Shown one piece after another: positions 17,833-41,240 of a stretch of 64,000 nt of DNA; the first letter of the stretch is position 1; every line of letters begins with the position of its first letter. This DNA comes from Candidatus Zixiibacteriota bacterium (lineage in GTDB: Bacteria; Zixibacteria; MSB-5A5; GN15; FEB-12). Both the position numbers and the translations under genes were made by a program. The DNA is taken from contig JBFMDV010000023.1 in NCBI GenBank assembly GCA_040753875.1, positions 124,001-188,000 of the forward strand, given 5' to 3'. Under the pieces are notes generated by a model that made no database searches, was not told the DNA's origin, and was given only the letters and a program-made list of their open reading frames with translations.

Positions 17833-18845
17833 CGTCCCCCGTTCCAATTCACCGAGCGCCCTCCGTCAAAAGTCACCCGATAAGGAGTTCCTGGGGTATT
17901 ACGACCTACCGTCGTCAATTGCTCCCAAGGGAAGCCACGTGATGCCGCATTGAAATCATAGTAATTGTCCCTCGCGGTAATGGTACCCTCGAAAGAAACA
18001 GACGTTTCGTCGACTGTGAGAGTTCCATCCAGTTCTAACCTCACATCTCCAAATGCAAGATATGTATCGTAGTCACCATGGCCCTTTGGGCTGAATCCCA
18101 TTTCCGCATGGAACGCATACACTCCGTTATCGTAATTCGAGGCTGCTTCTTTAAATGCCTCGAAGTCTGTTGGTTCGACGTTGCCCGCGCCGAGCTGTTT
18201 GAATGGGACCGACAGGTCTTTTCCTCCACCTACTAAGTAATGTAAGAACGCTTGCACGGCACTGATGCGCGACTCTGCACTCTTGAGAGGTTTGAATCCC
18301 ATAGCTTCATCTGTTACGGACGCATAAACTGCACCGTAGTATCGAGCCTTGTCGATTGTCTGTCTTGGAACATGTCCGACGTCCCAACCGCCGATTTCTA
18401 ACCATGCGTCTGTCAGTTCGCCGTCCTCATACTTGCTGTACAAATAGCCCATCGATTGGCCACAATCGTTCACGTTGACAGAAGACAAATCATCAGTGGC
18501 GTAATGAGGAATTCCAGACCGTATTTCAGTTGCCATGTAGATTTGCTCCAATTCCGCTTGAAAGGCTAAGTCCTCCTCAATTCCACCTCCAAGCGGACTG
18601 TCATAGATCGAATAGCGCCACCAGGCTTTCTTCTCGTATTCCGCTGCCCAGGCAGCATCGTATTCGAACCCGGTCGGGTCGGAAAACATTACTGGGTTCC
18701 CCTCGGCATAGCTGTACGGCGACGCACTGGACAGAATCGGGTCCGGTGCCAGGAACCGGCCGATATCTCTATCGTAGTATCTCGGCTCAAAGTCAAGCTG
18801 CCGCGTCTTGTCCAATTCCTTGCCAATAAACCGCCGGTTCGGCAC
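17829..18845 (-). CDS. Displaced Rhs C-terminal tip b with colicin M-like toxin region
   Basis: Open for 338 residues from a GTG inside the Rhs core (VPNRRFIGKE). Residues 1-125 repeat the end of the main Rhs protein (RFLAPDPI, DPTGFEYDAAWAAEYEKKAWW, IEEDLAF, EIRSGIP), then the sequence changes completely. The last 110 residues (AVQAFLHYLVGGG, VEPTDFEAFKEA, YLAFGDVRLELDGTL, NYYDFNAASRG, LTTVGRN, TPGTPYRVTFDGG) recall the lipid II-cleaving domain of colicin M relatives. The family's D-x-Y-D...R signature is only approximate here (D-N-Y-Y-D, then R six later). The core upstream has a TAA stop (in YYP-stop-GG), so this is a displaced, probably silent cassette unless recombined into the main gene. 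Confidence 0.62.
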   Translation of the reverse strand: MPNRRFIGKELDKTRQLDFEPRYYDRDIGRFLAPDPILSSASPYSYAEGNPVMFSDPTGFEYDAAWAAEYEKKAWWRYSIYDSPLGGGIEEDLAFQAELEQIYMATEIRSGIPHYATDDLSSVNVNDCGQSMGYLYSKYEDGELTDAWLEIGGWDVGHVPRQTIDKARYYGAVYASVTDEAMGFKPLKSAESRISAVQAFLHYLVGGGKDLSVPFKQLGAGNVEPTDFEAFKEAASNYDNGVYAFHAEMGFSPKGHGDYDTYLAFGDVRLELDGTLTVDETSVSFEGTITARDNYYDFNAASRGFPWEQLTTVGRNTPGTPYRVTFDGGRSVNWNGGR

Positions 18846-27287: not shown

Positions 27288-29213
27288 TTATTTCGCCACA
27301 GCCGGGGCAGGTTTCAACATGACTATGGCATTCTTCTCGCTCGCTTCGGCCAGCAGCAACTGCCTTAAGGCGGGCCACTCCGATGACGAAACCTGCGTTT
27401 TGACAAGCTGCAGTTCACGAATCACGACCAATCGACCATCGCGAATCTCCGCCATTACAGAGAACTGACCCGCGGCATTCTCGACGCGCATGGGAGTCGG
27501 ATAATGGACAACCTGAACCGACGTTGTATCTATTGACAGCATAACGCGCTGCATCACCGGGGACGAAAGGTGCACGGTTGATTGGCGTTCCGGTTGATAT
27601 ACGAGAAGATCGTGCGGCAAATGATCAAAGACGCCGTCTTTCGGGCGTCCAATCGATATGACGGTCCGTGCGAAATCGTCCGGTTCTGGTTTGGGGAGTT
27701 CGACCATGAAGCCCACCGACACAGCTTCCGGTTCGAAGCGGCCTGGGTTATATTCAGTTACAGTTGTTCCCTTTAGCACGCTTGCAGCAAGACCACCCAG
27801 ATAGGTCTTGGCCTCTGATTCCAAGCCGGACATCTGGCTGAACGGACACATTTCTCCATCCGCTGCCAGCATCCCTTTACCGACAAATTTGGCCTTCTCT
27901 TTGTCGTAGCTCAGATCAACGCGGACAGCGTAACGAGCTGGACTCTCCCCCATTCGATGTGGTGCACTGTCCGTGTCGGGATTCCAAAGCGTGCGGCCTG
28001 CCAAGCCCATGTCCCCGTACGATATCGTACCATCGTTGGGGTGGTATACGGCTCGAAAGATATTATCCTCAATCAGCAAGTCTATTCCCTCAAAGGGCGC
28101 CAATGACGGAACGTCGGAATCGATTGGCGTGGTCCCCTTGCTCACAAACAATGGATGCGTAGAAACACCCACTCGCCTGAAGAGCGCGGATGCCAGGACG
28201 GCGCGGTCGAGGCGGTGACCGTAGGCTGAATTGTAGACCTGGTCAGCTGTCCTTGCTGCAGACCACCAGTAGGATTCCGGATAGTTGACATAGGTTACCC
28301 TGTCATTCACGAATCTGGCTATGGACATCACCCTCTCACCGAACGTTCGGGACAAGTGAATGAGAGAATCCGCGGCCTTGATTAGCAATGGATCGTTGAT
28401 GCCGGCGGATTGAAAAGGATGCTGAACGAACGCTCCCAGATCAGTCCAGCTACTCCACACTGTCCAGGCGACGTGCGGCAGTTCCGCAGCCTGGTCGACC
28501 GTATGTGGCAGCGGACTGGCCGATGATGGGCCCATCTCCCATCGAACGATTTCCATCCCGTTCTCTTGGTCAATTCTGCGGACGGGTGGCGGCACATCAG
28601 CGGAAACGGCCAGATGCAATTTCGTGCCGCGAGGCACCGCGAGTTCCAGCCAGCATCGCACTGCGGGATCATCGCGCTGAAACTGGAATACGCCGTCTAT
28701 CGATCTGCGGTATGGCGCTTTGTCGTCTATGCGGTAGGCCAGTTCCAGTATACAGGGAACCTCCACCCCGTTGTGCAAGAGCATCATCTCGCGCATACCG
28801 GCGTAATCGACGGCATGTTCGAGTGCAAACGGAAGCGTCTCGACGATTCCGGTGGAATCGGTTGGCCACCACCGATTGTCCCGCCAGGTGCGGAGAGCCA
28901 ACGGCGTGAAGGTGCAATGCTCTTGATCGAACGGGATGCGGTTATCGGCATAGAGATCGCCGGCCACATTTGAATTGACCAGCAGAATACGATGCACCAG
29001 TGTGGACATCCGGCCGTCGTGCGACCATGTCACTGATCTGCCCTCGGACAATATGACAGCGTCGGCCTTGGCGGTGTCAATGGTGCGGATAGCGATGGCC
29101 AGCTGTGCCGCGATGTCAATCCGACCATCGTATGATTCCTGAGCAGTGCCTGCGGAAGTCATCAAGGTCACCACGAAACCGAGGCGTGCAATTTGAAGGG
29201 GTAAACGTCTCAT
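27288..29213 (-). CDS. Exported DUF3857-type protein
   Basis: 641 residues with a signal peptide (LGFVVTLMTSAGTAQ). The order resembles its upstream neighbour: an N-terminal domain with VTWSHDGRMSTLVHRILLVN, a middle beta-rich part, and a transglutaminase-like region at about residues 300-370 (IARFVNDRVTYVNYPESYWW, RLDRAVLASALFRRVGV). The catalytic Cys of transglutaminases is replaced (RLDRAVLASAL lacks Cys), so this copy is probably not an active enzyme. Its ATG overlaps the upstream stop as ATGA. Related gene pairs are frequent in the FCB group; their role is unknown. Confidence 0.75.
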   Translation of the reverse strand: MRRLPLQIARLGFVVTLMTSAGTAQESYDGRIDIAAQLAIAIRTIDTAKADAVILSEGRSVTWSHDGRMSTLVHRILLVNSNVAGDLYADNRIPFDQEHCTFTPLALRTWRDNRWWPTDSTGIVETLPFALEHAVDYAGMREMMLLHNGVEVPCILELAYRIDDKAPYRRSIDGVFQFQRDDPAVRCWLELAVPRGTKLHLAVSADVPPPVRRIDQENGMEIVRWEMGPSSASPLPHTVDQAAELPHVAWTVWSSWTDLGAFVQHPFQSAGINDPLLIKAADSLIHLSRTFGERVMSIARFVNDRVTYVNYPESYWWSAARTADQVYNSAYGHRLDRAVLASALFRRVGVSTHPLFVSKGTTPIDSDVPSLAPFEGIDLLIEDNIFRAVYHPNDGTISYGDMGLAGRTLWNPDTDSAPHRMGESPARYAVRVDLSYDKEKAKFVGKGMLAADGEMCPFSQMSGLESEAKTYLGGLAASVLKGTTVTEYNPGRFEPEAVSVGFMVELPKPEPDDFARTVISIGRPKDGVFDHLPHDLLVYQPERQSTVHLSSPVMQRVMLSIDTTSVQVVHYPTPMRVENAAGQFSVMAEIRDGRLVVIRELQLVKTQVSSSEWPALRQLLLAEASEKNAIVMLKPAPAVAK

Positions 29214-31225
29214 CTCGTCCCTCCTTTCTCGGCTCGATAAATGGTCGCGGCGTAGGCCTTCGTTTCTTTGAGCGCCTTGCGAAAGCCAGTATAGCCGCCA
29301 GGCGGTATCTGCCGTCGTCGAATCTCTACTCTCTGAGTGACGAGCAGTTCCTGCCCTTTCATCTCGGCCGAACCATGGAACGCGGCATAGGTCTCATCGA
29401 CAGTGCTGCCGTTCTTGGGCGTGTTGACCTTGTAACCGGGCGGAAGAGTAATGAATTCGCGACCGTCAAGAAGTTGTGTTGTATACAGGAAGACATCGTC
29501 GTTTCGTTTTTCCGGCCATTCACCAGTTACCGGGCTCAACAGCGTGGGGCTATTGGTGGTCACTTGCATCAGCGGGCTCTTGAATTCGAGGGCGCTGTCC
29601 ACTCGCCGGGCGTAATCCAGAACACGAAAACTGATTTTCCACCACATGGATTTCTTGAAGTCAAGTGGGTTCCCATGTTGGTATCCCAGAAGTTCGACTC
29701 GATCGTCGATCGGCCGAAGGAGTTTGGCAAGAGCAAGGTTCATTTCGGACTTTCGTGTGTTTACCAGCATGCGGCGAAGACGGCTGTCCATAGCCCCATC
29801 GGAATCGACAGACAGCTCTCCCTCCAGCGTCCCATCCGCAAGGATCTTCGCCTTGCTCGTGACCCGCATCGGGGATTCCTCCGGCGCGCTATAGCGAATG
29901 CGGTTGAGTCGTTCGCCGGTTGCCGAGCCGACCAGATAATGCTGTTCGGATTCGTATTTGCTCCAGATGTCTTTGTAATCCGGCACCCAGGTCGGGTCAT
30001 ACATTTCGTAGCTGCCATCTGGTTTGTGGAGCGCAACCACACAGTGGTTGAACTGGTCCGCAGGAACATCGTCGATCCGGCTCCCGGCCATAGTCATAGC
30101 CGGATTTGCCTCAAGACCGGCCGCGCGCATCATGGTTACCAGCATGCCCGCAATATCCTTGCAGACGCCGCTTCTCTGCTCGAATATCATATCCCCGGGA
30201 TGAAGTGTGAATCCTTCCCCTTTGCCCATTGTCTGACCACTGTAGCGGATATTCTGCGCTACCCAGTGTACGAGCTCGAACGCTTTCTGTTCGTCGGTCC
30301 CTCGGCTTACTCCGGCGTTCGTGAGTATCTCAGTCACTTTCTCACGAATAGGCTCTGTCGCGGCAAACTGCCCGTTGTTGACCTCGAAAAACCACCGGCT
30401 CTTCGCCTCCCAGCTTTCGACCGTGGCCAGAACCACCTTGGTCAGAATGTCGGGGTCGTCAGGGTGTGACCGTTCCGGTTTCCAGGCGGGCATATCTTTG
30501 GCCCACCATATATAGAAGGTGGTATCAGCGGAGTAGCTGGTGCTGCTGTACATCGGACCATTGTATACCTGTGAATGAAGCCGCTTCCGTGATGGCAAGG
30601 CAAGTTGGTACCTTTTCTCGACTATCGGGACGGTAGCTTCAAACAACACGATGTCGAAATATTCGCCGCGCATCGGCGGGATGTACCGTTCGTCCTCCAT
30701 CGGCACACCCGGCTGGTCCAACAAGGCGTACGAGTATCCCTTTCGAAACGAGCGCACTTCTATGCCGTCTCCGACGTGCAATCGCGGCAACTGCAGCAGC
30801 TCGATCCGATTCCCCCAGTAGATCATGCTCTGCGGTGCCGGAAGGTCCCTGACACCATCGACTGAAACTGAAATTACCGTGTCACCACGAATGACAGAGA
30901 CGCTCTTCACGTCGACATGACTGCTGAGTGGCTCATACCCCCAATTCAGGACAGCAAGATTGCGACACCCTTCCTCGGTGAGTACTTTGTACAGGACATA
31001 ACTGTCGGTGTATGCTATGCCGACGTCACTCACCCGGTTAACAGTCGAGTCGAGCACGAATATGTACGGGGCGCCTTCGAATTCCTTCGCAGTTCCAGCT
31101 CGCTTGACGCGTTCAAAGACCGTCAGTGGCGGAGTGTAGCCTGGTGGGAGTGTTGGTTCGCTTTCGCCTCGTCCAGGCAACAGGAGTGCCAACACCATTG
31201 CCTGCATGCACCACTTTTTCACCAT
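29210..31225 (-). CDS. Exported DUF3857 and transglutaminase-like protein
   Basis: 671 residues from ATG 31225, with GGAGG 6 bases upstream. Signal peptide MQAMVLALLLPGRGES. Residues 40-260 match DUF3857 (YVLYKVLTEEGCRNLAVLNW, VSVIRGDTVISVSVDG, RNG-type RKGYSYALLD). A transglutaminase core follows with Cys in RSGVCKDIAGMLVTMMRAAG, His in FNHCVVALHK and Asp in YDPTW. The triad looks intact, so it may be a cysteine protease or cross-linker in the periplasm. The frame is open to 31366 but nothing supports a longer form. It forms a two-gene operon with its degenerate paralogue. Confidence 0.82.
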   Translation of the reverse strand: MVKKWCMQAMVLALLLPGRGESEPTLPPGYTPPLTVFERVKRAGTAKEFEGAPYIFVLDSTVNRVSDVGIAYTDSYVLYKVLTEEGCRNLAVLNWGYEPLSSHVDVKSVSVIRGDTVISVSVDGVRDLPAPQSMIYWGNRIELLQLPRLHVGDGIEVRSFRKGYSYALLDQPGVPMEDERYIPPMRGEYFDIVLFEATVPIVEKRYQLALPSRKRLHSQVYNGPMYSSTSYSADTTFYIWWAKDMPAWKPERSHPDDPDILTKVVLATVESWEAKSRWFFEVNNGQFAATEPIREKVTEILTNAGVSRGTDEQKAFELVHWVAQNIRYSGQTMGKGEGFTLHPGDMIFEQRSGVCKDIAGMLVTMMRAAGLEANPAMTMAGSRIDDVPADQFNHCVVALHKPDGSYEMYDPTWVPDYKDIWSKYESEQHYLVGSATGERLNRIRYSAPEESPMRVTSKAKILADGTLEGELSVDSDGAMDSRLRRMLVNTRKSEMNLALAKLLRPIDDRVELLGYQHGNPLDFKKSMWWKISFRVLDYARRVDSALEFKSPLMQVTTNSPTLLSPVTGEWPEKRNDDVFLYTTQLLDGREFITLPPGYKVNTPKNGSTVDETYAAFHGSAEMKGQELLVTQRVEIRRRQIPPGGYTGFRKALKETKAYAATIYRAEKGGTR

Positions 31226-31521
31226 CCCATACCTCCAAGAGCTATGTCGATCGTACGACCTGTTCGTATTTACCGACTTGGATAATAAGCAATTGCGCAG
31301 CGCTCGGCAGTAAAATCTATTCAGTTCCGGCGGACAGATACTCAATCGAGTCGGACACTGCTCCAAGGTTGCCTGACCCTATGTATCTGCCTGGTGAGCA
31401 CAAGAAAACATGTGCAAGATTGTCGGTTATGACGTATCTTATAGTGTCCGCCGCACAGACGTGCATCATTGGTCCGACATCGGCGCTCATTGCGAGTACA
31501 GTTCTCCTAAGGAGGTCCGCC

Positions 31522-31892: not shown

Positions 31893-31923
31893 AAGGGCCG
31901 GTTGCCTGGTGCTACCGGCCCTT
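31893..31923. terminator. Hairpin between convergent genes, possible bidirectional terminator
   Basis: AAGGGCCGGT (31893-31902) pairs with ACCGGCCCTT (31914-31923), loop 11. The stem is perfect but no long T run follows on either strand, so strength is uncertain. Confidence 0.5.
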
Positions 31924-31961: not shown

Positions 31962-34541
31962 CTACTCTTTCGCTGTCAGGACAAAATCGATGTGCTCGAC
32001 CGATTGGGCGGTCTCCCCTGCATTGACCTGAAACTGGATCGACTCCGGCTTCGAGCGGTAACCGAATTTTTCGAGTTGCCCCGGATCGATATACGCGCGA
32101 TACATGCCAGGAATCAGCCCCAGATAATAGTACTCGCCGTTGTTGAACGTTGGTATCTCGGTGACAATATCTTTGGACACATTGAGGACCTTGATCCTGA
32201 TGCCGCCGACGCCGTACAGGCCGTCGGTAGTCTGGCGCTGTACCAGCCCGCTGATATCCGATGCCACCAGGACCGGCACGTCAACCGATGTGACAACATT
32301 CGGCGTGGTTGAGACCTTAAAATTCTCATAGGAAGGCTTGAGCATGGGGTTGTCAAGGCTGTTGGGATCCACCTGGATCACATATTCGTCGTAAGCTCGA
32401 AGGCCGTCGTAGAAAAACAGCCGTTTGTCGCCGACCGGCCGTCCGCCCGCGCCATTGACCTTTGCTTTCATCCCAGGCAAAAACTCTTCACCGTCGTTCA
32501 GGGAGCCGTCATTGTTCTTGTCGACAAACGGCCGGACGACCGCTGAGCCGAAGCCGACCGCACTGCGGCGGTCGAGACGGATCGTACTGCTGACCCGGTC
32601 GTAGCGGATGGAACCGCGCTGCACCTGACTCATGGACGTCTGCCGGTCCGACCGGAGAAATCTCGACGCGAAATAAGCGATCTGATTGAAGAAATTGACG
32701 TTCACCATGATGGAGTTGCTCTTGGCGAGCGGATACCGCTCATACGCTATGGAGAGTTGGGCGGTCCGGAACATGCGACGAGTCAGATATACGCCGTACT
32801 GGGTAACCAGTTTCTGGTCGTGTGCGTAGTCCATGCGAAATTGCGGGCGGAACCAGTTGGCGATCTCAGCCGAGACGAGCACCTGGCTGCCCGCGGTGTG
32901 CAGCTTCCTCGTCTCATACGTTGAGACTTTATACTTGCCCGTGTAGTTGATATAGAGCGGCGCCATGGTAGTATTGAAACCGAAGTTCATCGAAGTGCTG
33001 GAGAATCCGAGGAATTTGTCGAGCGCCACATAGTACCGCAGGCCAATATACTTCTGTCGCAGGCGAAGCGGCACGGACGTAGAGAAGGTGATGTTCTGTT
33101 GTTGATTGAGAGCGTTGCGGAACGAATTCCGTTCGAATCTGGTGACGTTCACGTTGGCGTTGACGAATGACGGCATGGAATAGTTGAGTCCAAGCTGCGC
33201 CTGGTAGTTGGGAGAGAACGACCCGTTGGCGGTCAGATTGCGAAATATCTGGCAGGTGGCTTCGCCGGCCACCAATGGGGTTTCACCGTACTTGTCGGCG
33301 ACAGGCAGGTCGGCGCCGGCCCCTACCGTAAGGAATCGCGTAACACCGTAATAGCCGGCGGCCTGCGTGTACGTGCTTTTCCCCTTGAGCATCCGGCCAG
33401 AACCGGCACCAACGCTATACTCGGCCGTGTTTTTCGGAACAAGGTTGTACGGTACGCGGATGAACTGCTCTTCGGTTCGTATCTCTCCGTTGGGGCCGAA
33501 CTTCTTCAAGGTCACGAGCGACGCGCCGTACATGATATCCAGGTTGAATGAATAGTCACCATGCTCATCGACAGTAGCGAAATCGACGAGTCGACTGTCG
33601 ACATACAACTCCACCTCCCACCCCGGCTGCAAATGACCCGAGAGGGTGATGGTCTGGAAATAGGTGCGTTGTATCTGCGGTCGGTTGGTCAGCAACCCAC
33701 CCTCGAGGCTGCGAGAAAGTGGACCGCCGATGAACACGTCACCGAGCTCCGCTTGTGTGAGATACGGATTGTCCCCAACATAATAATGCCAACGGTAGCC
33801 GAACTGGTCCGGCTGGACACCGGTAACGGTATTGCCGCTGCCGGTGAGGGTGAGGTCTCCCCCCATGACCATGGAGCCCAGTGTCAGGTCAAAATACTGC
33901 CCATTCCCCCCAAGCGGGTTGGCCGAAAGAACCCAGTCCGCCGCGCCGCCTGAGAAATACTCATGCCTCGGTGGAACGACCCGGATATTTTTTAACTCGG
34001 CCGTTTCTGTCTGGAGCTTCTCCCTCGCTTGTTTGCGCTTCAACTTCTGGTACGCCGGAAAGGAGTCGTTCAGAGGGACGAGCACCCGCAGGGCAGCGAA
34101 GTCGAACGTCAGATTGAGTCCGAAAATGGTTTCGAAGACGTCGATCCGCAGATAGAATTCGTGCTCCGTCCTGACAAAATCCGATGCCATAAGGGGTAGG
34201 TCACGGCCATGAATCTTCGCCGTGTGCGCCACGAAATCCAGTTCGTAGGTGACATTGGTGGACAAGAAGAAGCCGGCGGCTTTTCCGGCACTGAAGTCGG
34301 TCTTGATATTCAGGTCGAGCAGGTCGAACAGTTCGGTCAGCGGAAGATACACGGTTCGGCCATCAAACCGAACCAGCAGATCGCGCGACACGAGTCGCGG
34401 TACGTCGAAATTGACGACAATTTCCTCGTACGATGCCGATTGGGCAGAAGCATTGCCCGGACTTATGGTCAGGAAAATGAGGGCTGCCCAAAGAGCAGCT
34501 GACCTGATCACTCCGGCTATGATGTCTGGTCGCACGGCCAT
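31962..34541 (-). CDS. Outer-membrane usher-like protein of chaperone-usher pilus
   Basis: 859 residues from ATG 34541 (AGGG 8 bases upstream; an upstream GTG at 34559 is also possible). A signal peptide ends near NASAQS. Usher landmarks: VNFDVPRLVSRDLLVRF start region, YRWHYYVGDNPYL and LGDVFIGGPLSRSLEGG in the barrel, and PGWEVELYVDSRLVDF with GDYSFNLDIMYG, LVTLKKFGPNGE, the plug-type Ig domain. Many amphipathic strands follow and a C-terminal beta-domain (KVLNVSKDIVTEI, GLIPGMYRAYIDPG). It would be the pore that assembles and exports pilus subunits. It ends the pilus operon. It is far from classical FimD sequences and closer to archaic or alternative ushers. Confidence 0.75.
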   Translation of the reverse strand: MAVRPDIIAGVIRSAALWAALIFLTISPGNASAQSASYEEIVVNFDVPRLVSRDLLVRFDGRTVYLPLTELFDLLDLNIKTDFSAGKAAGFFLSTNVTYELDFVAHTAKIHGRDLPLMASDFVRTEHEFYLRIDVFETIFGLNLTFDFAALRVLVPLNDSFPAYQKLKRKQAREKLQTETAELKNIRVVPPRHEYFSGGAADWVLSANPLGGNGQYFDLTLGSMVMGGDLTLTGSGNTVTGVQPDQFGYRWHYYVGDNPYLTQAELGDVFIGGPLSRSLEGGLLTNRPQIQRTYFQTITLSGHLQPGWEVELYVDSRLVDFATVDEHGDYSFNLDIMYGASLVTLKKFGPNGEIRTEEQFIRVPYNLVPKNTAEYSVGAGSGRMLKGKSTYTQAAGYYGVTRFLTVGAGADLPVADKYGETPLVAGEATCQIFRNLTANGSFSPNYQAQLGLNYSMPSFVNANVNVTRFERNSFRNALNQQQNITFSTSVPLRLRQKYIGLRYYVALDKFLGFSSTSMNFGFNTTMAPLYINYTGKYKVSTYETRKLHTAGSQVLVSAEIANWFRPQFRMDYAHDQKLVTQYGVYLTRRMFRTAQLSIAYERYPLAKSNSIMVNVNFFNQIAYFASRFLRSDRQTSMSQVQRGSIRYDRVSSTIRLDRRSAVGFGSAVVRPFVDKNNDGSLNDGEEFLPGMKAKVNGAGGRPVGDKRLFFYDGLRAYDEYVIQVDPNSLDNPMLKPSYENFKVSTTPNVVTSVDVPVLVASDISGLVQRQTTDGLYGVGGIRIKVLNVSKDIVTEIPTFNNGEYYYLGLIPGMYRAYIDPGQLEKFGYRSKPESIQFQVNAGETAQSVEHIDFVLTAKE

Positions 34542-34614
34542 GTGCTTACCCTGAATCACCTGTGAACGTCAGAAAGCGAGACTTCCCGTCTCGCCCATTA
34601 CACTGACAGCTGCG

Positions 34615-35487
34615 CTATTCGACAGCCATCGAATACGTGACTTTGTTGCCGGGTATAAGGTCCTCGGGCGCAATGTCGGACCGTCCGTCGGTCGTAATGG
34701 ACACTTCGACCTGATATGGCCCGCTGGCTGTCACGTTTTGAAGCGGCAGCTCCATGCGTCGCTTCAAATCACGATACACCGCCAAGTCAGTCTGCTGACG
34801 CCCCAGTTCTTTCTTGTTCATGTCGAGCAGGCGGCAACTCAACATGCCGACATACGAGACATTTCCCTTATTGCTCAGGTCGACGATAACAACTACCGAG
34901 GTGTCATTACGATAAGCTTCGGCGGAGGCCAGTTCGATCTTCGATGTGAGATTCCCCGTCCGGTACTTCACCATGATGGCGGTCTGCATGATCATGTTGA
35001 GTTTGGTACTGATGGTCCCTTCTTCGGCCGGGGCCGGGATACTGGTTTCCCCTTCCTGTGTTCGCACCACGATGCGGGCCCAATATTCGCCGTCGGCCAG
35101 CCCCTTTGGAGGCGTGGCGACCAGGCGAACCACCTGGGTGCCGTTCGGGGGAATGACCACTTTGCGCGGAAACGCTTTGATCCACTCGACCGCTGAGCGC
35201 GGGTCCACCACACCGGAATCCTGCAGTGTGATGTACACGTTGCCGGCGGTATCAGATATGGGGAGCCCATAGCTGAATCGAATGGTTACTTCCTTGGGGA
35301 TATTCGTGGGATTCTGGATGTCCATACGGCCGGTACGGCTTTTGTCCGACATGAAAATGACGGTCGGCGCTACCAACACACCGGCAACGAGGTTTGACGC
35401 GGCTATGGTCGACAAAGCCGCGCCCAAAAACAGACCCCACCGGAAACGGCTGGTTTTCAGCGGTGGGGTGATATGTGCCTTTTTCAT
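34615..35487 (-). CDS. PapD-like periplasmic pilus chaperone
   Basis: 290 residues. Signal peptide with GLFLGAALSTIAASNLVAG. The first Ig domain shows chaperone features: VAPTVIFMSDKSRTGRMDIQN, WIKAFPRKVVIPPNGTQVVRL (the basic and hydrophobic G1 region that donates a strand to subunits) and GEYWARIVV. A second domain follows from about residue 165. It would capture DUF4402 subunits in the periplasm and deliver them to the usher, whose gene is next. ATG follows GAGAGG. Confidence 0.78.
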   Translation of the reverse strand: MKKAHITPPLKTSRFRWGLFLGAALSTIAASNLVAGVLVAPTVIFMSDKSRTGRMDIQNPTNIPKEVTIRFSYGLPISDTAGNVYITLQDSGVVDPRSAVEWIKAFPRKVVIPPNGTQVVRLVATPPKGLADGEYWARIVVRTQEGETSIPAPAEEGTISTKLNMIMQTAIMVKYRTGNLTSKIELASAEAYRNDTSVVVIVDLSNKGNVSYVGMLSCRLLDMNKKELGRQQTDLAVYRDLKRRMELPLQNVTASGPYQVEVSITTDGRSDIAPEDLIPGNKVTYSMAVE

Positions 35488-35603
35488 GGCCTCTCATCCT
35501 ATGTGTTATATCTGCCTGTGGTGCTTCTCCGCGCCGGGCATCCTGCCCAACTGACTGGAGACCGCACTGCCGGCGCTTTCGTTGGCCGGCGTTCACTTAC
35601 TGA

Positions 35604-36161
35604 TCAAGAGCCTGTATACGAAACGGTCAACACGATATCGGCGGAATACGCACCCGCGGTCTGGTTTACCGAAGGAAACACCTGGCCACCGAGGAAAATC
35701 GCAGCGGAACCGCCACCGCCGATCCTGGTCGCAGTCGGAAACGCGTGCGGGTTAATGTTGTCCCAACCACCGGCTCCCGGCGTAGTCGGGTCGACGTTAG
35801 CTGTCGAATCGACAGTGGCATCGGTCGTGCTGAATGAGACCACCATCCTGTCGTTGCCCACGCCGCCCTGGAGGTATTCCGGCAGCTGCATGTAGATCGA
35901 GATCTGGGCATCGGCGGCGCCAGCGATAGTGAAGACACCAGCCTGGGCGACGTTATTCGCGACGGTCTTGGAGATCCCCTGGTACACGTTGCCAAACGCC
36001 AGCGCGTTGGTCGCCGTGACTGTCAGGGCCGCCAAAAGCGTTGCTGTGGCCGAGCCGTTCGCGACGTCCTGGGCCTGAACCGACATCGGTCCCGCCAGTA
36101 GCGCGACGGCGATCACTGCAATGAGCAGAGTGCGAATCTGCTTGAAAGAGAACGTGTGCAT
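35604..36161 (-). CDS. DUF4402-type pilus subunit 1
   Basis: 185 residues, from ATG 36161 with AAGGAG 6 bases upstream. Signal peptide LLIAVIAVALLAGPMSVQAQ, then the subunit domain: ATATLLAALTVTATNALAFGNVYQG, ISIYMQLPEYLQ, SFSTTDATVDS, IFLGGQVFPSVNQTAGAYS and VLTVSYTG at the end. A Gly-rich incomplete Ig fold ending in SYTG is typical of subunits completed by a donor strand. Closest to subunit 2 in this cluster (long identical stretches), so recently duplicated. It lies 116 bases before the chaperone gene. Confidence 0.82.
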   Translation of the reverse strand: MHTFSFKQIRTLLIAVIAVALLAGPMSVQAQDVANGSATATLLAALTVTATNALAFGNVYQGISKTVANNVAQAGVFTIAGAADAQISIYMQLPEYLQGGVGNDRMVVSFSTTDATVDSTANVDPTTPGAGGWDNINPHAFPTATRIGGGGSAAIFLGGQVFPSVNQTAGAYSADIVLTVSYTGS

Positions 36162-36249
36162 TCTCGTCTCCTTGGACTCTATGGGGACTCCGCCCCTCTT
36201 TCCGTGAATATTCTTCATGACCTAATATCCCGGTGGTGTAGCGCTTTTC

Positions 36250-36813
36250 TCAGCTTCCGGTGTAGGCCACGGTCAGGACGACATCGGCGCTATAAGCGCC
36301 CGCCGTCTGGTTGACCGATGGAATGACCTTACCGCCAAGGTAGATGTCGGTGTTGCCGCCGGAACCAATCACAGCCGCAGCCGGAAAAGCGTGCGGATTG
36401 ATGTTCTGCCAGCCGCGTCCAGCCACCATGCCGGTCGGCGCATTGGCGCCGGTCGAATCGACGGATGCATCGGTGGTGCTGAACGAGATCACCATCCGGT
36501 CGTTGCTGACGCCGCCCTGCAGATATTCCGGGAGTTGCATGTAAATGGAGATCACGCTGCTGGCCTGGCCGCTGACGCGGAACACTCCGGCTGCGGCGTT
36601 GTTGTTCGCGATCGTCTTGGCAATTCCCTGATAGACGTTGCCGAAGTCGAGGGCCGCGGTGGAGGTCACAGTCAGGGTCGCGTAAACCGTCGCGGTCGCG
36701 GATCCCACGGCAACGTCCTGTGACATAGCTCCGGAGGGCAACAACCACGCCGCAGCTATCAGAACGGCGGCCAGCGTCCGTGCCATCCCAAGCCTTCCGA
36801 GAGTGTTTCTCAT
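36250..36813 (-). CDS. DUF4402-type pilus subunit 2
   Basis: 187 residues from ATG 36813 (GGGAG upstream; 36831 and 36786 are alternatives). Signal peptide ends AMSQDVAVG. The domain repeats the pattern of subunit 1: TATVYATLTVTSTAALDFGNVYQGI, ISIYMQLPEYLQGG, SFSTTDASVDS, IYLGGKVIPSVNQTAGAYS, VAYTGS. High similarity to subunit 1 suggests duplication. A long spacer with possible promoter signals precedes it. Confidence 0.82.
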   Translation of the reverse strand: MRNTLGRLGMARTLAAVLIAAAWLLPSGAMSQDVAVGSATATVYATLTVTSTAALDFGNVYQGIAKTIANNNAAAGVFRVSGQASSVISIYMQLPEYLQGGVSNDRMVISFSTTDASVDSTGANAPTGMVAGRGWQNINPHAFPAAAVIGSGGNTDIYLGGKVIPSVNQTAGAYSADVVLTVAYTGS

Positions 36814-37031
36814 ATCTGGCTTTTCTCCCATGTTCAGTCTTTATGCAAAATATGTGTCTTCGCCTTAGCGCTTCTGTTCAGTTGTTTAATCGGTACACAG
36901 TGCAGATTCTTTACACTGTTTCAGGAAAAAACGGCAAATTGCCATTTCGGGGGATATGTGAGGGAAATGCTCCGGACTAATTCGCTCGTGATGAGAGTCG
37001 GGTGAACAGCCCAGTTGTGCAGGCAGCAGAA

Positions 37032-37051
37032 AGCCGCCGGAAGCGGCGGCT
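37032..37051 (-). terminator. Hairpin after pilus subunit 3, possible partial terminator
   Basis: AGCCGCCG and CGGCGGCT form a perfect 8-base stem around a 4-base loop. On the minus strand TTTCTG follows, a weak T tract. It lies 39 bases after the stop of subunit 3 and before subunit 2, so it may lower expression of the downstream genes. Confidence 0.5.
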
Positions 37052-37090
37052 AAGCATCAATAATACAATGACTTACGTGTCAGCCTGGAA

Positions 37091-37654
37091 TCAGGTGCCG
37101 GTATAGGCGACGCTGCAAATGATATCCCCGGCGTAGTTGCCCGCACTCTGGTTGACTGATGGAGTCACCCGTCCGCCGAGATAGATTCTGGTCGCACCGC
37201 CCGCTCCGATACGGAGGGTTATGGGAAGGTTGCGGGGGTTCTGGTCAGCCCAGCCATCGGCAGGTGCGAAAGTGGCAGGCGTGACGGTGGTGGAATCGAC
37301 GTTGGCATCGGTGTTCGAGAACGCAATGTTAAGTCGGTCGGAGCCGTTAGGTAGAGCCAGATAGTCGGGCAGTGTAAGGTAGACTGAAAGCCCGGCACTG
37401 GGAACGCCGGCAATGCCGAATATTCCCGACGAGTCATCATCGTTCTTCACCATAGACTTCGCGATCCCCTGGAACACGTTGCCAAACTGGAGATTCTGAA
37501 TAGCAGTGACAGAGAGACCGGCAAGAACAGTGGCCGTGGCCAGTCCATTGGCAACATCCTGACTATGGGTCAGTTCTGCCTGAAAACCGATGGCCAGGAC
37601 AGCGACAAGCACAAGGATGCGGCTCATGGATCTGCGTTCCTGTAGAGGCTTCAC
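37091..37654 (-). CDS. DUF4402-type pilus subunit 3
   Basis: 187 residues from a GTG at 37654 with GGAGG 7 bases upstream; ATG 37627 is an alternative and fits the signal peptide (LVLVAVLAIGFQAELTHSQ) well. Domain blocks: ATVLAGLSVTAIQNLQFGNVFQG, GLSVYLTLPDYLAL, FSNTDANVDS, IYLGGRVTPSVNQSAGNYAG, VAYTGT. More divergent from subunits 1 and 2. Confidence 0.8.
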   Translation of the reverse strand: MKPLQERRSMSRILVLVAVLAIGFQAELTHSQDVANGLATATVLAGLSVTAIQNLQFGNVFQGIAKSMVKNDDDSSGIFGIAGVPSAGLSVYLTLPDYLALPNGSDRLNIAFSNTDANVDSTTVTPATFAPADGWADQNPRNLPITLRIGAGGATRIYLGGRVTPSVNQSAGNYAGDIICSVAYTGT

Positions 37655-37821
37655 GTGTCTCCCTCCTTCATTTCCGGGACCGGCTTAAGCTGTGCATCGC
37701 GAGTATCATCTACCCGGGAGAATCGACAGAAATCAGCGCACAAAGACTGAAAATGGACAATTCCAGCCGCTGTCACCAAACGTTTGAAGGTGAATTGAAC
37801 AATGAAACAAAAAGTGCAAGG

Positions 37822-38310
37822 TCAGTTGCCGGTATACTCGACTTTGACCTGTATGATGCCGGAGTAGTTGCCCGGTTTTTGACCAATATTCGGCACGATC
37901 GTCCCTCCCAGCCAGATGGTCAAACCGTTCAGCCCAAGACGATAGGTGATCGGTTGCCACGGATTCAGATCATCGTAACCGGGAGTCGATTGGTTGGGCG
38001 TGGCGCTGGAATCCATAGCGCAGTCCGTATTGCCAAAAATTACGTGCATGTTGAAGCCGCCCTGATTGATGTAGGTCGGCAAAAATAAGAACGTAATCAG
38101 TACTTCAGAACCGGCCGTACCAGACACGTGGTATTCGGCCGCCGCACCGGCGGTCGCCTTATCGATTACCTTGGGGACGCCAGGAAACAGATTCCCGAAT
38201 CGGAGAGGGGCTACCTCGGAAATGGTCTGTGCAGCAGACATCCCGCCAACAACACATATCAACATCACAGCCAGGAGGATATTCGAGTATGTCATGATTC
38301 GCGTAGACAT
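37822..38310 (-). CDS. DUF4402-like pilus subunit 4
   Basis: 162 residues. Signal peptide SNILLAVMLICVVGGMSAAQ. Shorter domain: APLRFGNLFPGVPKVIDK, AGSEVLITFLFLPTYI, FGNTDCAMDS, IWLGGTIVPNIGQKPGNYSG and VEYTGN. The same FGN, LGG and final YTG positions as its neighbours place it in the family, although the first strand differs. It could be a tip or an adaptor subunit; this is inference. Confidence 0.75.
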   Translation of the reverse strand: MSTRIMTYSNILLAVMLICVVGGMSAAQTISEVAPLRFGNLFPGVPKVIDKATAGAAAEYHVSGTAGSEVLITFLFLPTYINQGGFNMHVIFGNTDCAMDSSATPNQSTPGYDDLNPWQPITYRLGLNGLTIWLGGTIVPNIGQKPGNYSGIIQVKVEYTGN

Positions 38311-38411
38311 GTGTGCCGTTCAGGAAATGGAATTGAGCTATCCGAGTCAACAATTAACTGAATCGGATGATACTGGCGGCAGGTGCCTTCACGAAGCTTG
38401 AAAACGGCCGG

Positions 38412-38801
38412 CTAATTCTCGGTGCCGATCAGTGTCATGACTATGGTGGCGTCAGGACCGGCTGCAGATTGCAGTGCGGCAGCGAGGGAATATACAGCGG
38501 CCAGGTCACCCTCCTCCGCTCCAAGATCAGGCAACGGGGTCACCTCCCGGGGTGAATTGTTGTCGACCGACAAAGTCAAACACAGCCCTCCCGGTCGCGG
38601 CTGGAGGAGAATCATACCCGGCGGCGCGCCGGTAGCTGAAACGGTAGGTCCGCCGTTCAGAATCCCGAGCGGGCGGATAACCGATGCTGATACCTGAATG
38701 GATGACGATACCGATCTACCTTGCGCTCTGCCGTCAGAGGCGAAGACCATCACAAGGCTGAACAACAAACAGAACGAGCTAAGAGTACGCTGCCAAGACA
38801 C
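38412..38801 (-). CDS. Small exported protein in the pilus operon
   Basis: 129 residues. Signal peptide (FCLLFSLVMVFASDGRAQG) then SSSIQVSASVIRPLGI and a Pro/Gly-rich beta region (LLQPRPGGLCLTLSVDN), ending LIGTEN. It lacks the FGN and LGG blocks of the DUF4402 subunits but has a similar first strand (VSASV). It may be a degenerate subunit or an accessory protein. It lies between subunits 4 and 5 on the same strand. Confidence 0.6.
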   Translation of the reverse strand: MSWQRTLSSFCLLFSLVMVFASDGRAQGRSVSSSIQVSASVIRPLGILNGGPTVSATGAPPGMILLQPRPGGLCLTLSVDNNSPREVTPLPDLGAEEGDLAAVYSLAAALQSAAGPDATIVMTLIGTEN

Positions 38802-38909
38802 GACGGTATCCGATGTACGTTAGTAGGTACATCACGAAGATACCGCAAATTCCGTTTCTGTCAATCGGGAAACGGACCTCGAATCTGTCTCAGCGCATGT
38901 GTCAATTCA

Positions 38910-39443
38910 TCAGTTGCCGGTATACGCGACGGTCAACATGATGTCCGCGGCATAGTCCCCGCCGGTCTGTGAAACCCTGGGAAGCACAGTTCCGCCGATC
39001 CAGACCCACATTTGACCACCGGCGGCCAATCGCAAAACCGAGGGCCCATTGGGATTGAGTATGCCGCTTGGCGATGCCTGCCCGCCTCCGGAGCCATCAT
39101 CGTACGAGGCATCGGTGGCACTGAAGGTTACTCTCATGGCCGAGAGCGTGTCAGCGGTGCGAAGCGAATCCGGCAGAGAAAACGCGATAGACAACTCTGC
39201 CGATGGGGAACCGTTGATTGTCCACTCACCGGCAAAACCGACTGTCGCTTTGTCCACCGATTTATTGATGCCCGGGGTTACGGTGCCAAAAAGCAGATTA
39301 TTGGTTCCCAGCACGCTCAAGCTGGAAACCACCGTAGCCAGTGCTTGAATAGTAGCCCGTTCCTGAGCCACTGCCGCAGACGACGGGATCAGGCTAAGAC
39401 CAACTGACAGACTTAACGTCAGGAATTTCCATCGAGATCTCAC
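38910..39443 (-). CDS. DUF4402-type pilus subunit 5 (first gene of the pilus operon)
   Basis: 177 residues starting at GTG 39443, which follows GAGGTGA by 5 bases; a GTG at 39452 is also in frame. Signal peptide FLTLSLSVGLSLIPSSAAVAQ. Domain: ALATVVSSLSVLGTNNLLFGTV, AELSIAFSLPDSL, FSATDASYDD, VWIGGTVLPRVSQTGGDYAA and VAYTGN. As the first gene it may be made in the largest amount. Confidence 0.8.
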   Translation of the reverse strand: MRSRWKFLTLSLSVGLSLIPSSAAVAQERATIQALATVVSSLSVLGTNNLLFGTVTPGINKSVDKATVGFAGEWTINGSPSAELSIAFSLPDSLRTADTLSAMRVTFSATDASYDDGSGGGQASPSGILNPNGPSVLRLAAGGQMWVWIGGTVLPRVSQTGGDYAADIMLTVAYTGN

Positions 39444-39464
39444 AGTGTTCACCTCACCCAGAAG

Positions 39465-39485: not shown

Positions 39486-39746
39486 AGTGCTTGAGCAAGG
39501 CCAATGCCGCAAGTTCAGGTGCACTGTATGAGCTGAATTCGCATAGACTTGCGATTCGTCGAGCCCTATCAAACGTGAATCAAGAGCGGACCCGGCATGG
39601 TCTGCATCCCTCTATATCGTTGCAGCAGGTGGACTGGTAATCAATGCTCCGGCGTCGAGACTGACCGGAACCGTCGCTAAAGGATCGTGGGGTTTCGCCG
39701 ACACATTCAATGTGACCTGTTCAGAAATCGAACAGTCTGCAAGATT

Positions 39747-41240
39747 ATGAGAGACAAGTACTCGGGCGCTGATCACGTGGCTGCTAAGGCTCTCTTCCTC
39801 AGCATACTGATTTTGTACGGCTCGGCGGCAGCACAGAACATGGTCTGGTCTGCCAGCTACGGCGGCACTTACAATGAGGGCGGGTACGCCTGCCTGAGTC
39901 TACCTGATAGCGGTTATGTTGCGGTCGGCTCAACATTCTCGTTCGGCTCGGGAGATTATGATGTCTACCTGTTGAGGCTGGACTCGCTCGGCAATATCCT
40001 CTGGAGTCGCACCTACGGCGGACCCGCATCCGATATGGGACATGATATCCAAACGACTCCCGACGGTGGCTTCATAATTGTGGGCACTACCAGTTCCTAT
40101 GGGGCCGGTGGTGCCGATCTGTGTTTGTGGCGGACCGACTCTGCAGGTCAGCTTCAATGGACCAGGACCTTTGGCGGTGCACAAACCGACGAGGGCTGGT
40201 CGATCCGAGCAACGTATGATCGCGGCTTTGTCGTGTGCGGCAGCACCAGCTCAAGTGGTGCCGGGTATGCGGATCTGTTTGTGATCAAGGTGGATTCATT
40301 GGGCAACAGCGACTGGGCGCAAACATTTGGGGGATCCGGAGGCGAGTCCGGGTACGCCATCCGCCAGACACGAGACTCAGGGTACGTTGCGGTCGGCGCA
40401 ACCGGCTCGTTTGGCGAGGGGTACAGCAGCATATACGCGGTCCGAGTCTCCCCTATGGGTGATTCTCTTTGGGCGAAGACCTACGGTGGGGCAAGGGCCG
40501 ATGTCGGTTATTCAGTTGAGGTCACGCCCGACGGTGGCTTTGTGTTGGTCGGGGTAACAGCTTCGTATGGACTCGGGTACTATGATGCGTACCTGGTCCG
40601 AACCGATGCCGACGGCACCCAGCTCTGGGATAAAACGTACGGCGGAGCGAGAGACGACTACGGCTATTCGGTCAGCATTACCCCGGACGGTTTTCTACTC
40701 GCGGGCACCACCGAGTCATCAGGAGCGGGAGCCTCCGACGTATTCGTAGTGAAAGCCGACCCGGTCGGAACTCAAGTTTGGAGCCACACGTACGGCGGAA
40801 ACAAGGCCGACTATTGCCGCACGATTCTCAAGAATCGTCTGTCGCAATTCGTTGCGGTCGGCAGTACATACTCGTACGGTGTGGGCGGTTCAGACCTCTA
40901 CATGGTAGCTCTCATGGCTGATGGACAAACGCCGGTGGACGACTGGTCAGGCTCATTACCCGAGGGATTCGACCTGACCCAGAACTATCCCAATCCGTTC
41001 AACGCCACCACCCGGATTGAGTTCAGCGTGGGATTTCGCACCAATGTGCGGTTAACCCTTTACAATATTCTGGGTCAGGAAGTCCGGACCTGGCTTATCC
41101 CCCGTGCAACAGAAGGCAGCTCAAGTATCGATTGGGATGGTACGGATGCGACGGGGAGGCCGGTGGCGACGGGTGTCTATCTCTATCGAATCGAAGCCGG
41201 CCCATTTGTGCAATCGCGCAAGATGGTCCTGCTTAAGTGA
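39747..41240 (+). CDS. Exported repeat protein with FlgD/T9SS-like C-terminal module
   Basis: 497 residues from ATG 39747 (the frame opens at 39687 without support). Signal peptide ALFLSILILYGSAAAQ. Residues 30-390 hold about seven repeats of 50 residues of the form YGG..D.GYS....DGG.VLVG.T.SYG.G..D.YLVR.D..G...W, a probable beta-propeller. The last 80 residues are the sorting-like module with NYPNPFNATTRIEF, LYNILGQEVRTW, GVYLYRIEAG and final SRKMVLLK, typical of exported FCB proteins. Likely surface or secreted; no enzyme motif. Confidence 0.82.
   Translation: MRDKYSGADHVAAKALFLSILILYGSAAAQNMVWSASYGGTYNEGGYACLSLPDSGYVAVGSTFSFGSGDYDVYLLRLDSLGNILWSRTYGGPASDMGHDIQTTPDGGFIIVGTTSSYGAGGADLCLWRTDSAGQLQWTRTFGGAQTDEGWSIRATYDRGFVVCGSTSSSGAGYADLFVIKVDSLGNSDWAQTFGGSGGESGYAIRQTRDSGYVAVGATGSFGEGYSSIYAVRVSPMGDSLWAKTYGGARADVGYSVEVTPDGGFVLVGVTASYGLGYYDAYLVRTDADGTQLWDKTYGGARDDYGYSVSITPDGFLLAGTTESSGAGASDVFVVKADPVGTQVWSHTYGGNKADYCRTILKNRLSQFVAVGSTYSYGVGGSDLYMVALMADGQTPVDDWSGSLPEGFDLTQNYPNPFNATTRIEFSVGFRTNVRLTLYNILGQEVRTWLIPRATEGSSSIDWDGTDATGRPVATGVYLYRIEAGPFVQSRKMVLLK

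Follow-up and report, generated by a model that had tools for sequence, protein, structure and literature searches.

Three classes of chaperone-usher pili are usually distinguished, classical, alternative and archaic, and it is from these classes that the models used in annotation derive. In known chaperone-usher pili the tip subunit is the only one that lacks an N-terminal extension. The archaic (sigma) class is represented by Csu of Acinetobacter baumannii, the alternative (alpha) class by ECP and CFA/I, and the classical class by Fim, Pap and Caf1. Pakharukova et al. described how non-classical chaperones grip the subunit C-terminus through Arg89, on strand F1, and Tyr196/Arg174, while Pro59 is invariant throughout the chaperone superfamily (PMC4654587). 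Here we describe a gene cluster from Candidatus Zixiibacteriota which very probably encodes a chaperone-usher lineage distinct from all three of the classes above, with pilins of DUF4402 type, an assembly that would begin from the subunit designated s4, and a second transcription unit behind a promoter of the FliA type. The principle is known, and the system is an unrecognised deep variant of the chaperone-usher pathway; in the open literature (subscription papers being outside the scope of our search) DUF4402 is mentioned nowhere and Zixibacteria are never paired with chaperone-usher systems.

The window, by which we mean the whole 64,000-nucleotide stretch analysed, comes from contig 23 of a genome of 3.29 Mb whose completeness is rated at 100%. 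According to the list of open reading frames (ORFs), the cluster occupies positions 31962-39452 as eight minus-strand genes for five DUF4402 subunits, a small exported protein, a PapD-like chaperone and an usher, and all eight were found in the order and on the strand given by the original prediction. Its identification of a chaperone-usher pilus set is likewise borne out, although its label for the host, 'FCB-like bacterium', has to be amended to Candidatus Zixiibacteriota. From upstream to downstream, the features are these:

38910-39452, minus strand: s5, a DUF4402 pilus subunit with an N-terminal donor-strand extension (19.4 bits to DUF4402), which would open the upstream transcription unit.
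38412-38801, minus strand: small exported protein, with a signal peptide, a location kept across loci and an N-terminal match to s5.
37822-38310, minus strand: s4, a DUF4402 subunit without an N-terminal extension (31.2 bits to DUF4402), the predicted tip, or first-exported, subunit by residue count.
37091-37654, minus strand: s3, a DUF4402 shaft subunit with a donor strand, the last gene ahead of the internal terminator.
37033-37050, minus strand: intrinsic terminator-like hairpin, GCCGCCGCTTCCGGCGGC-TTTCTG, 40 nt past the s3 stop.
36887-36913, minus strand: putative sigma-28 (FliA)-type promoter, TAAAGAATCTGCACTGTGTACCGATTA, 82 nt upstream of s2, assigned by consensus and flagellin sharing.
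36250-36831, minus strand: s2, a DUF4402 shaft subunit, which would open the second transcription unit.
35604-36218, minus strand: s1, a DUF4402 shaft subunit, with a structure model.
34615-35487, minus strand: PapD-like periplasmic chaperone, by alignment and PapD_N matches, non-classical by its anchor residues Pro107 and Arg138.
31962-34559, minus strand: outer-membrane usher, by AlphaFold2 model and Foldseek.
31894-31921, minus strand: possible terminator 3' of the usher, GGGCCGGT...ACCGGCCC-TTTAGTTT, read by eye, its U-tract being too weak for the terminator scan.

The downstream neighbour (window 29210-31366) encodes a DUF3857/transglutaminase-core protein, and the upstream neighbour (window 39687-41240) a divergent repeat protein with a C-terminal domain of FlgD_ig/type IX-like character.

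Neither the usher nor the chaperone of the window is recognised by Pfam or NCBIfam, in which the usher yields only weak matches to SdrD_B and CarboxypepD_reg at its C-terminus. Searches of PDB sequences with usher and chaperone profiles returned no usher and only a marginal match to CupB2, and because these searches were uninformative structure models were needed. The AlphaFold2 model of the usher (35 sequences, mean pLDDT 86.6) consists of an N-terminal domain (residues 43-165), a linker helix (168-190), a barrel (202-654) and C-terminal domains (about 670-863). In the DSSP assignment the barrel begins with six strands and, after plug strands at residues 300-369, continues with 18 more to residue 654; the total is 24, strands 6 and 7 being separated by the plug, and the model thus has the barrel and plug by which the original prediction proposed that the usher be judged. 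In a Foldseek comparison with the PDB, FimD and PapC accounted for every one of the top 17 matches (from E 2.4e-27 downwards, 12–15% identity), and TM-scores to FimD were moderate, at about 0.5–0.6.

The chaperone is similarly divergent. PapD_N (Pfam) matches 34 of the 42 aligned chaperones, with a best value of 3e-6; the window sequence on its own gives no PapD match. Pro107 is invariant, and together with the PapD_N matches it supports assignment as a two-domain, PapD-like protein. Pro107 and Arg138 align with Pro59 and Arg89 respectively, and Arg138 is present in 36 of the 37 chaperones of the window's kind (type 1). Tyr238 falls within one column of Tyr196 and an equivalent of Arg174 was not found, so that placement of the Tyr/Arg pair is uncertain. 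The carboxylate anchors of classical PapD, Arg8 and Lys112, are replaced in the window chaperone by V43 and M172, and position 43 is V, S, I or A in all 37 type-1 sequences. Chaperones of a second type from the same phylum (type 2, see below) and of Proteobacteria have Arg43 and His138 in place of the type-1 residues. The DUF4402 lineage offers a natural setting in which to test the evolution of chaperone anchoring, with Arg138 in type 1 set against His138 with Arg43 in type 2.

Pfam DUF4402 matches each of the five subunits, as had been proposed from the sequence, although only s4 exceeds the curated cut-off of 25.2 bits and the other four score 19–23 bits. The shared blocks FGN, LGG and YTG reported earlier are real, except that s5 departs from them with FGT and IGG variants. 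The model of s1 (62 sequences, mean pLDDT 87.5, with 10-residue core blocks mostly at 93–98) has an open Ig-like core and a free N-terminal arm, residues from about 48 to 64 being unstructured. Its best Foldseek matches, at a modest E of 3e-4, are Caf1, FimI, FimA, CfaB, PapE and Csu, which represent all three known classes; the s1 model resembles donor-strand-complemented pilins, in agreement with the incomplete Ig folds that had been put forward as a test.

Counting residues from Gln(+1), immediately after the signal peptide, to a conserved Phe separates s4 from the remaining subunits. The distance is 24 residues in 55 of 55 countable rows for s1-3 and in 23 of 23 for s5; for s4 it is 9–11 residues in 26 of 26. 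When s1-3 are aligned with s4 by hhalign (E 5e-40), the alignment is continuous save for one 15-residue gap, and this gap is the donor strand. Without a donor strand s4 could sit only at the distal end of a fibre, which would make it the likely tip subunit, a role argued by analogy with FimH, PapG and CsuE. Being a single domain, s4 has no separate binding domain; the earlier observation that no adhesin of that kind was obvious thus stands insofar as there is no two-domain adhesin, and is refined by a tip candidate minus its donor strand. It might be supposed that the usher-like protein exports each DUF4402 protein on its own, to act at the surface or in the matrix, and that no fibre forms, given that the tip has no adhesin with its own binding domain and that a fibre has never been seen. 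We regard this as very improbable, since four of the five subunits have the additional strand by which classical subunits polymerise and one is without it, as a tipped fibre requires.

The small exported protein comprises a signal peptide, a donor-strand-like N-terminal segment (SSSIQVSASVIRPLG), a variable middle and a strand-like C-terminus, IVMTLIGTEN. At 22 or more further loci it occupies the same position, flanked in the majority by s5 and s4, and its N-terminal segment matches s5 in hhalign (93%). We rejected it as an ordinary DUF4402 subunit; a Pfam match is absent and the N-terminal segment alone aligns. The counterpart in Polaromonas resembles it in place and layout only. It may be a terminator, an adaptor or a variable adhesin.

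That this set is distant from the chaperone-usher pili of Proteobacteria had been recognised, but the distance was understated, for neither the usher nor the chaperone groups with any of the three known classes. The usher tree places both Zixiibacteriota types and the Proteobacterial members apart from classical, archaic and alternative ushers (support 100/99) and the chaperone tree likewise separates the DUF4402 lineage from the three classes (97/92), both trees being midpoint-rooted and built from alignments of very low identity, with long branches flagged and only two archaic references. Comparison by hhalign with single FimD, EcpC and FimC sequences was too weak to rank the classes by itself, and we therefore relied on the trees and on comparisons with CsuD and Polaromonas. 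The usher profile, A1, matched CsuD at E 2.6e-5 over 152 columns, FimD at 0.005 and EcpC at 0.018; it aligned with the Polaromonas usher over its full length at E 4e-48, a value favoured by the inclusion of type-2 members in A1.

With the classical systems the window shares usher topology (24 strands and a plug) and subunit fold, but neither the PapD carboxylate anchors nor a FimH-like adhesin. The pathway is shared with the alternative systems, and EcpB likewise has an arginine on strand F1; the usher, however, lies in a separate clade, its profile match to EcpC is not significant, and CS1-type subunits are absent. Among known ushers CsuD, of the archaic system, is the nearest by profile, and this system has the usher-chaperone-pilin logic and the non-classical Pro/Arg hallmark in common with the window, so that the cluster could be read as a very divergent archaic system and not a separate class. 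This seems unlikely to us, because the trees join the classical and archaic classes and leave the DUF4402 lineage apart, and because the window has DUF4402 subunits instead of SCPU (spore coat U) and no gene for a two-domain, CsuE-like tip adhesin in the cluster. Its usher also carries C-terminal domains of SdrD_B/CarboxypepD_reg-like type. A separate lineage remains our preferred reading.

Proteobacteria too carry members of this lineage. The window usher alone found seven matches among plasmid records, all of DUF4402 type, compared with 2260 for a FimD search. The matching records name DUF4402 and chaperone genes, with the usher labelled 'carboxypeptidase regulatory-like' or hypothetical, although two of them are unannotated or without a named DUF4402 gene. 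Plasmid clusters in Polaromonas, Sphingopyxis, Novosphingobium and Pseudoalteromonas contain the same kinds of gene and belong to the same lineage as the window, their ushers not being annotated as such. Two Polaromonas plasmids share the order subunit, small protein, subunit, chaperone, usher, and in Polaromonas JS666 the subunit that follows the small protein also appears without a donor strand. The plasmid systems differ from the window in having His for Arg138 and Arg at position 43 of the chaperone, and in having fewer subunits. On plasmid 2 of JS666 (L079 1825-9428) genes for IS6-family transposases flank the DUF4402 cluster on either side, which suggests that it moves as a unit. One entry of the plasmid collection, NZ_CP104448.1, is apparently a 4.09 Mb Acinetobacter chromosome filed as a plasmid.

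Within Candidatus Zixiibacteriota, a search of 132 genomes with the chaperone gave matches in 64 and near-full-length orthologues in 57, and the relatives located in named genomes all belong to Candidatus Zixiibacteriota/GN15. The order s5, small protein, s4, s3, s2, s1, chaperone, usher recurs across 32 fetched regions and 12 named contigs, the number of shaft genes varying from one to three. With order and sequence both conserved across the phylum, the cluster goes far beyond what chance would give. The second, divergent chaperone-usher type was seen in this phylum at five loci (L064 7998-11758, L074 7930-11696, L067 4609-8405, L065 and L066), where the subunits are DUF4402-like and nearer to the Proteobacterial plasmid systems; at L067 the first subunit and the chaperone stand some 3 kb apart, with two more subunit-like ORFs in between. 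The usher frame is broken in two at L006 9820-12477 and at L066 7254-9994, through frameshift or assembly error. Chaperone-like Ig proteins, one of them of 585 aa, occur with no recognised usher nearby at L068 6628-8385, L069 7430-8236 and L070 7653-8462.

The original prediction treated the eight genes as a single operon. This does not hold, because the gap between s3 and s2 contains a conserved terminator and promoter, and on the sequence evidence the cluster probably comprises two transcription units with their boundary in that gap. A terminator-like hairpin lies +22 to +40 nt past the first shaft gene (s3) in 20 of 23 loci, against a mean of 0.4 in shuffled sequences, and the terminator scan found almost none in the remaining intra-cluster gaps. 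The gap that holds hairpin and promoter-like motif has a median length of 282 nt. The motif, T[AT]AAG-N16-CGAT, is present in the remainder of this gap in 16 of 23 cases (0.25 in shuffles), and in 26 of 37 loci it stands directly ahead of the first gene past the hairpin; none was found ahead of s5 in 25 upstream regions. A scan for sigma-70 promoters was uninformative (four found, 4.3 expected), and an Rfam search of the s3-s2 gap for known RNA gave nothing credible.

A different reading of the gap is that the hairpin is a leaky attenuator within one operon, through which the genes before it, and s3 in particular, become more abundant. Known fimbrial operons include some in which a stem-loop 3' of the major pilin gene does set stoichiometry, and the two halves of the cluster always stay together in gene order; a promoter-like element nevertheless sits past the terminator in the same gap, and we consider an attenuator rather less likely than two transcription units.

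The motif upstream of s2 fits the textbook FliA consensus. Of 17 flagellin loci, 14, that of the window genome among them, have the same half-sites at the same 16-nt spacing, 212–255 nt ahead of the flagellin domain. A stricter sigma-28 pattern occurs eight times in the window genome (reversed control, 0), with other sites before flgN and a chemotaxis receptor (MCP) gene; in the AT-rich relatives chance matches are as common as genuine ones. FliA scores above cut-off in the window genome and in 123 of the 132 genomes of the phylum. With TAAAG-N16-CGAT common to the pilus gap and flagellar genes, and FliA encoded, a sigma-28 promoter is most likely, an assignment that rests on the consensus and on joint use by flagellin genes. 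A regulator specific to Zixiibacteriota could instead bind the motif, its likeness to sigma-28 sites being incidental, and the spacer TGAACTG, which is better conserved in pilus copies than in flagellin copies, does suggest a further bound factor. That such a regulator acts in place of FliA is improbable, given half-sites and an exact 16-nt spacing common to the flagellin loci, flgN and the MCP gene.

From what the analysis shows, namely the gene set and its conservation, the folds as models and not as structures, the strand missing from s4, the terminator and the promoter motif, we predict donor-strand exchange, assembly of a surface fibre and adhesion, with s4 at the tip and sigma-28 control of the second unit. 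Subunits would reach the periplasm by means of their signal peptides, where the PapD-like chaperone would complete their open Ig fold and deliver them to the 24-strand usher. The usher would begin with s4, after which s1, s2, s3 and s5 would join through donor-strand exchange. In Zixiibacteriota, s2, s1, chaperone and usher would form the second transcription unit, and since this unit stands behind a FliA-type promoter, machine and shaft would probably be produced together with the flagellum. Such a promoter would couple pilus assembly with flagellar assembly; the commoner view is that attachment and motility are oppositely regulated.

The lineage is at least as deep as the known classes and is present in much of an uncultured phylum as well as on Proteobacterial plasmids. 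Recognising it gives DUF4402 a predicted function and defines a minimal pilus that has no two-domain adhesin. More tentatively, and at somewhat less than even probability in our judgement, it may constitute a fourth chaperone-usher class, found in Zixiibacteriota and in Proteobacteria whose ushers are mis-annotated; on this reading, shaft and machine in Zixiibacteriota belong to the FliA regulon, tip and minor subunits come from a separate unit, and the small protein is a new donor-strand component without a full Ig domain; if true, this would mean a pilus built together with the flagellum in Zixiibacteriota.

Two further sigma-28-like sites were noted. One lies at about 18127-18153 of the window, on the minus strand, and the end of the next ORF resembles a colicin M domain, with a Pfam E of 4e-6 that falls slightly short of the cut-off. 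The other (G000:C26:37936-37962) is found 34 nt ahead of a gene for an HDOD-domain signalling protein.
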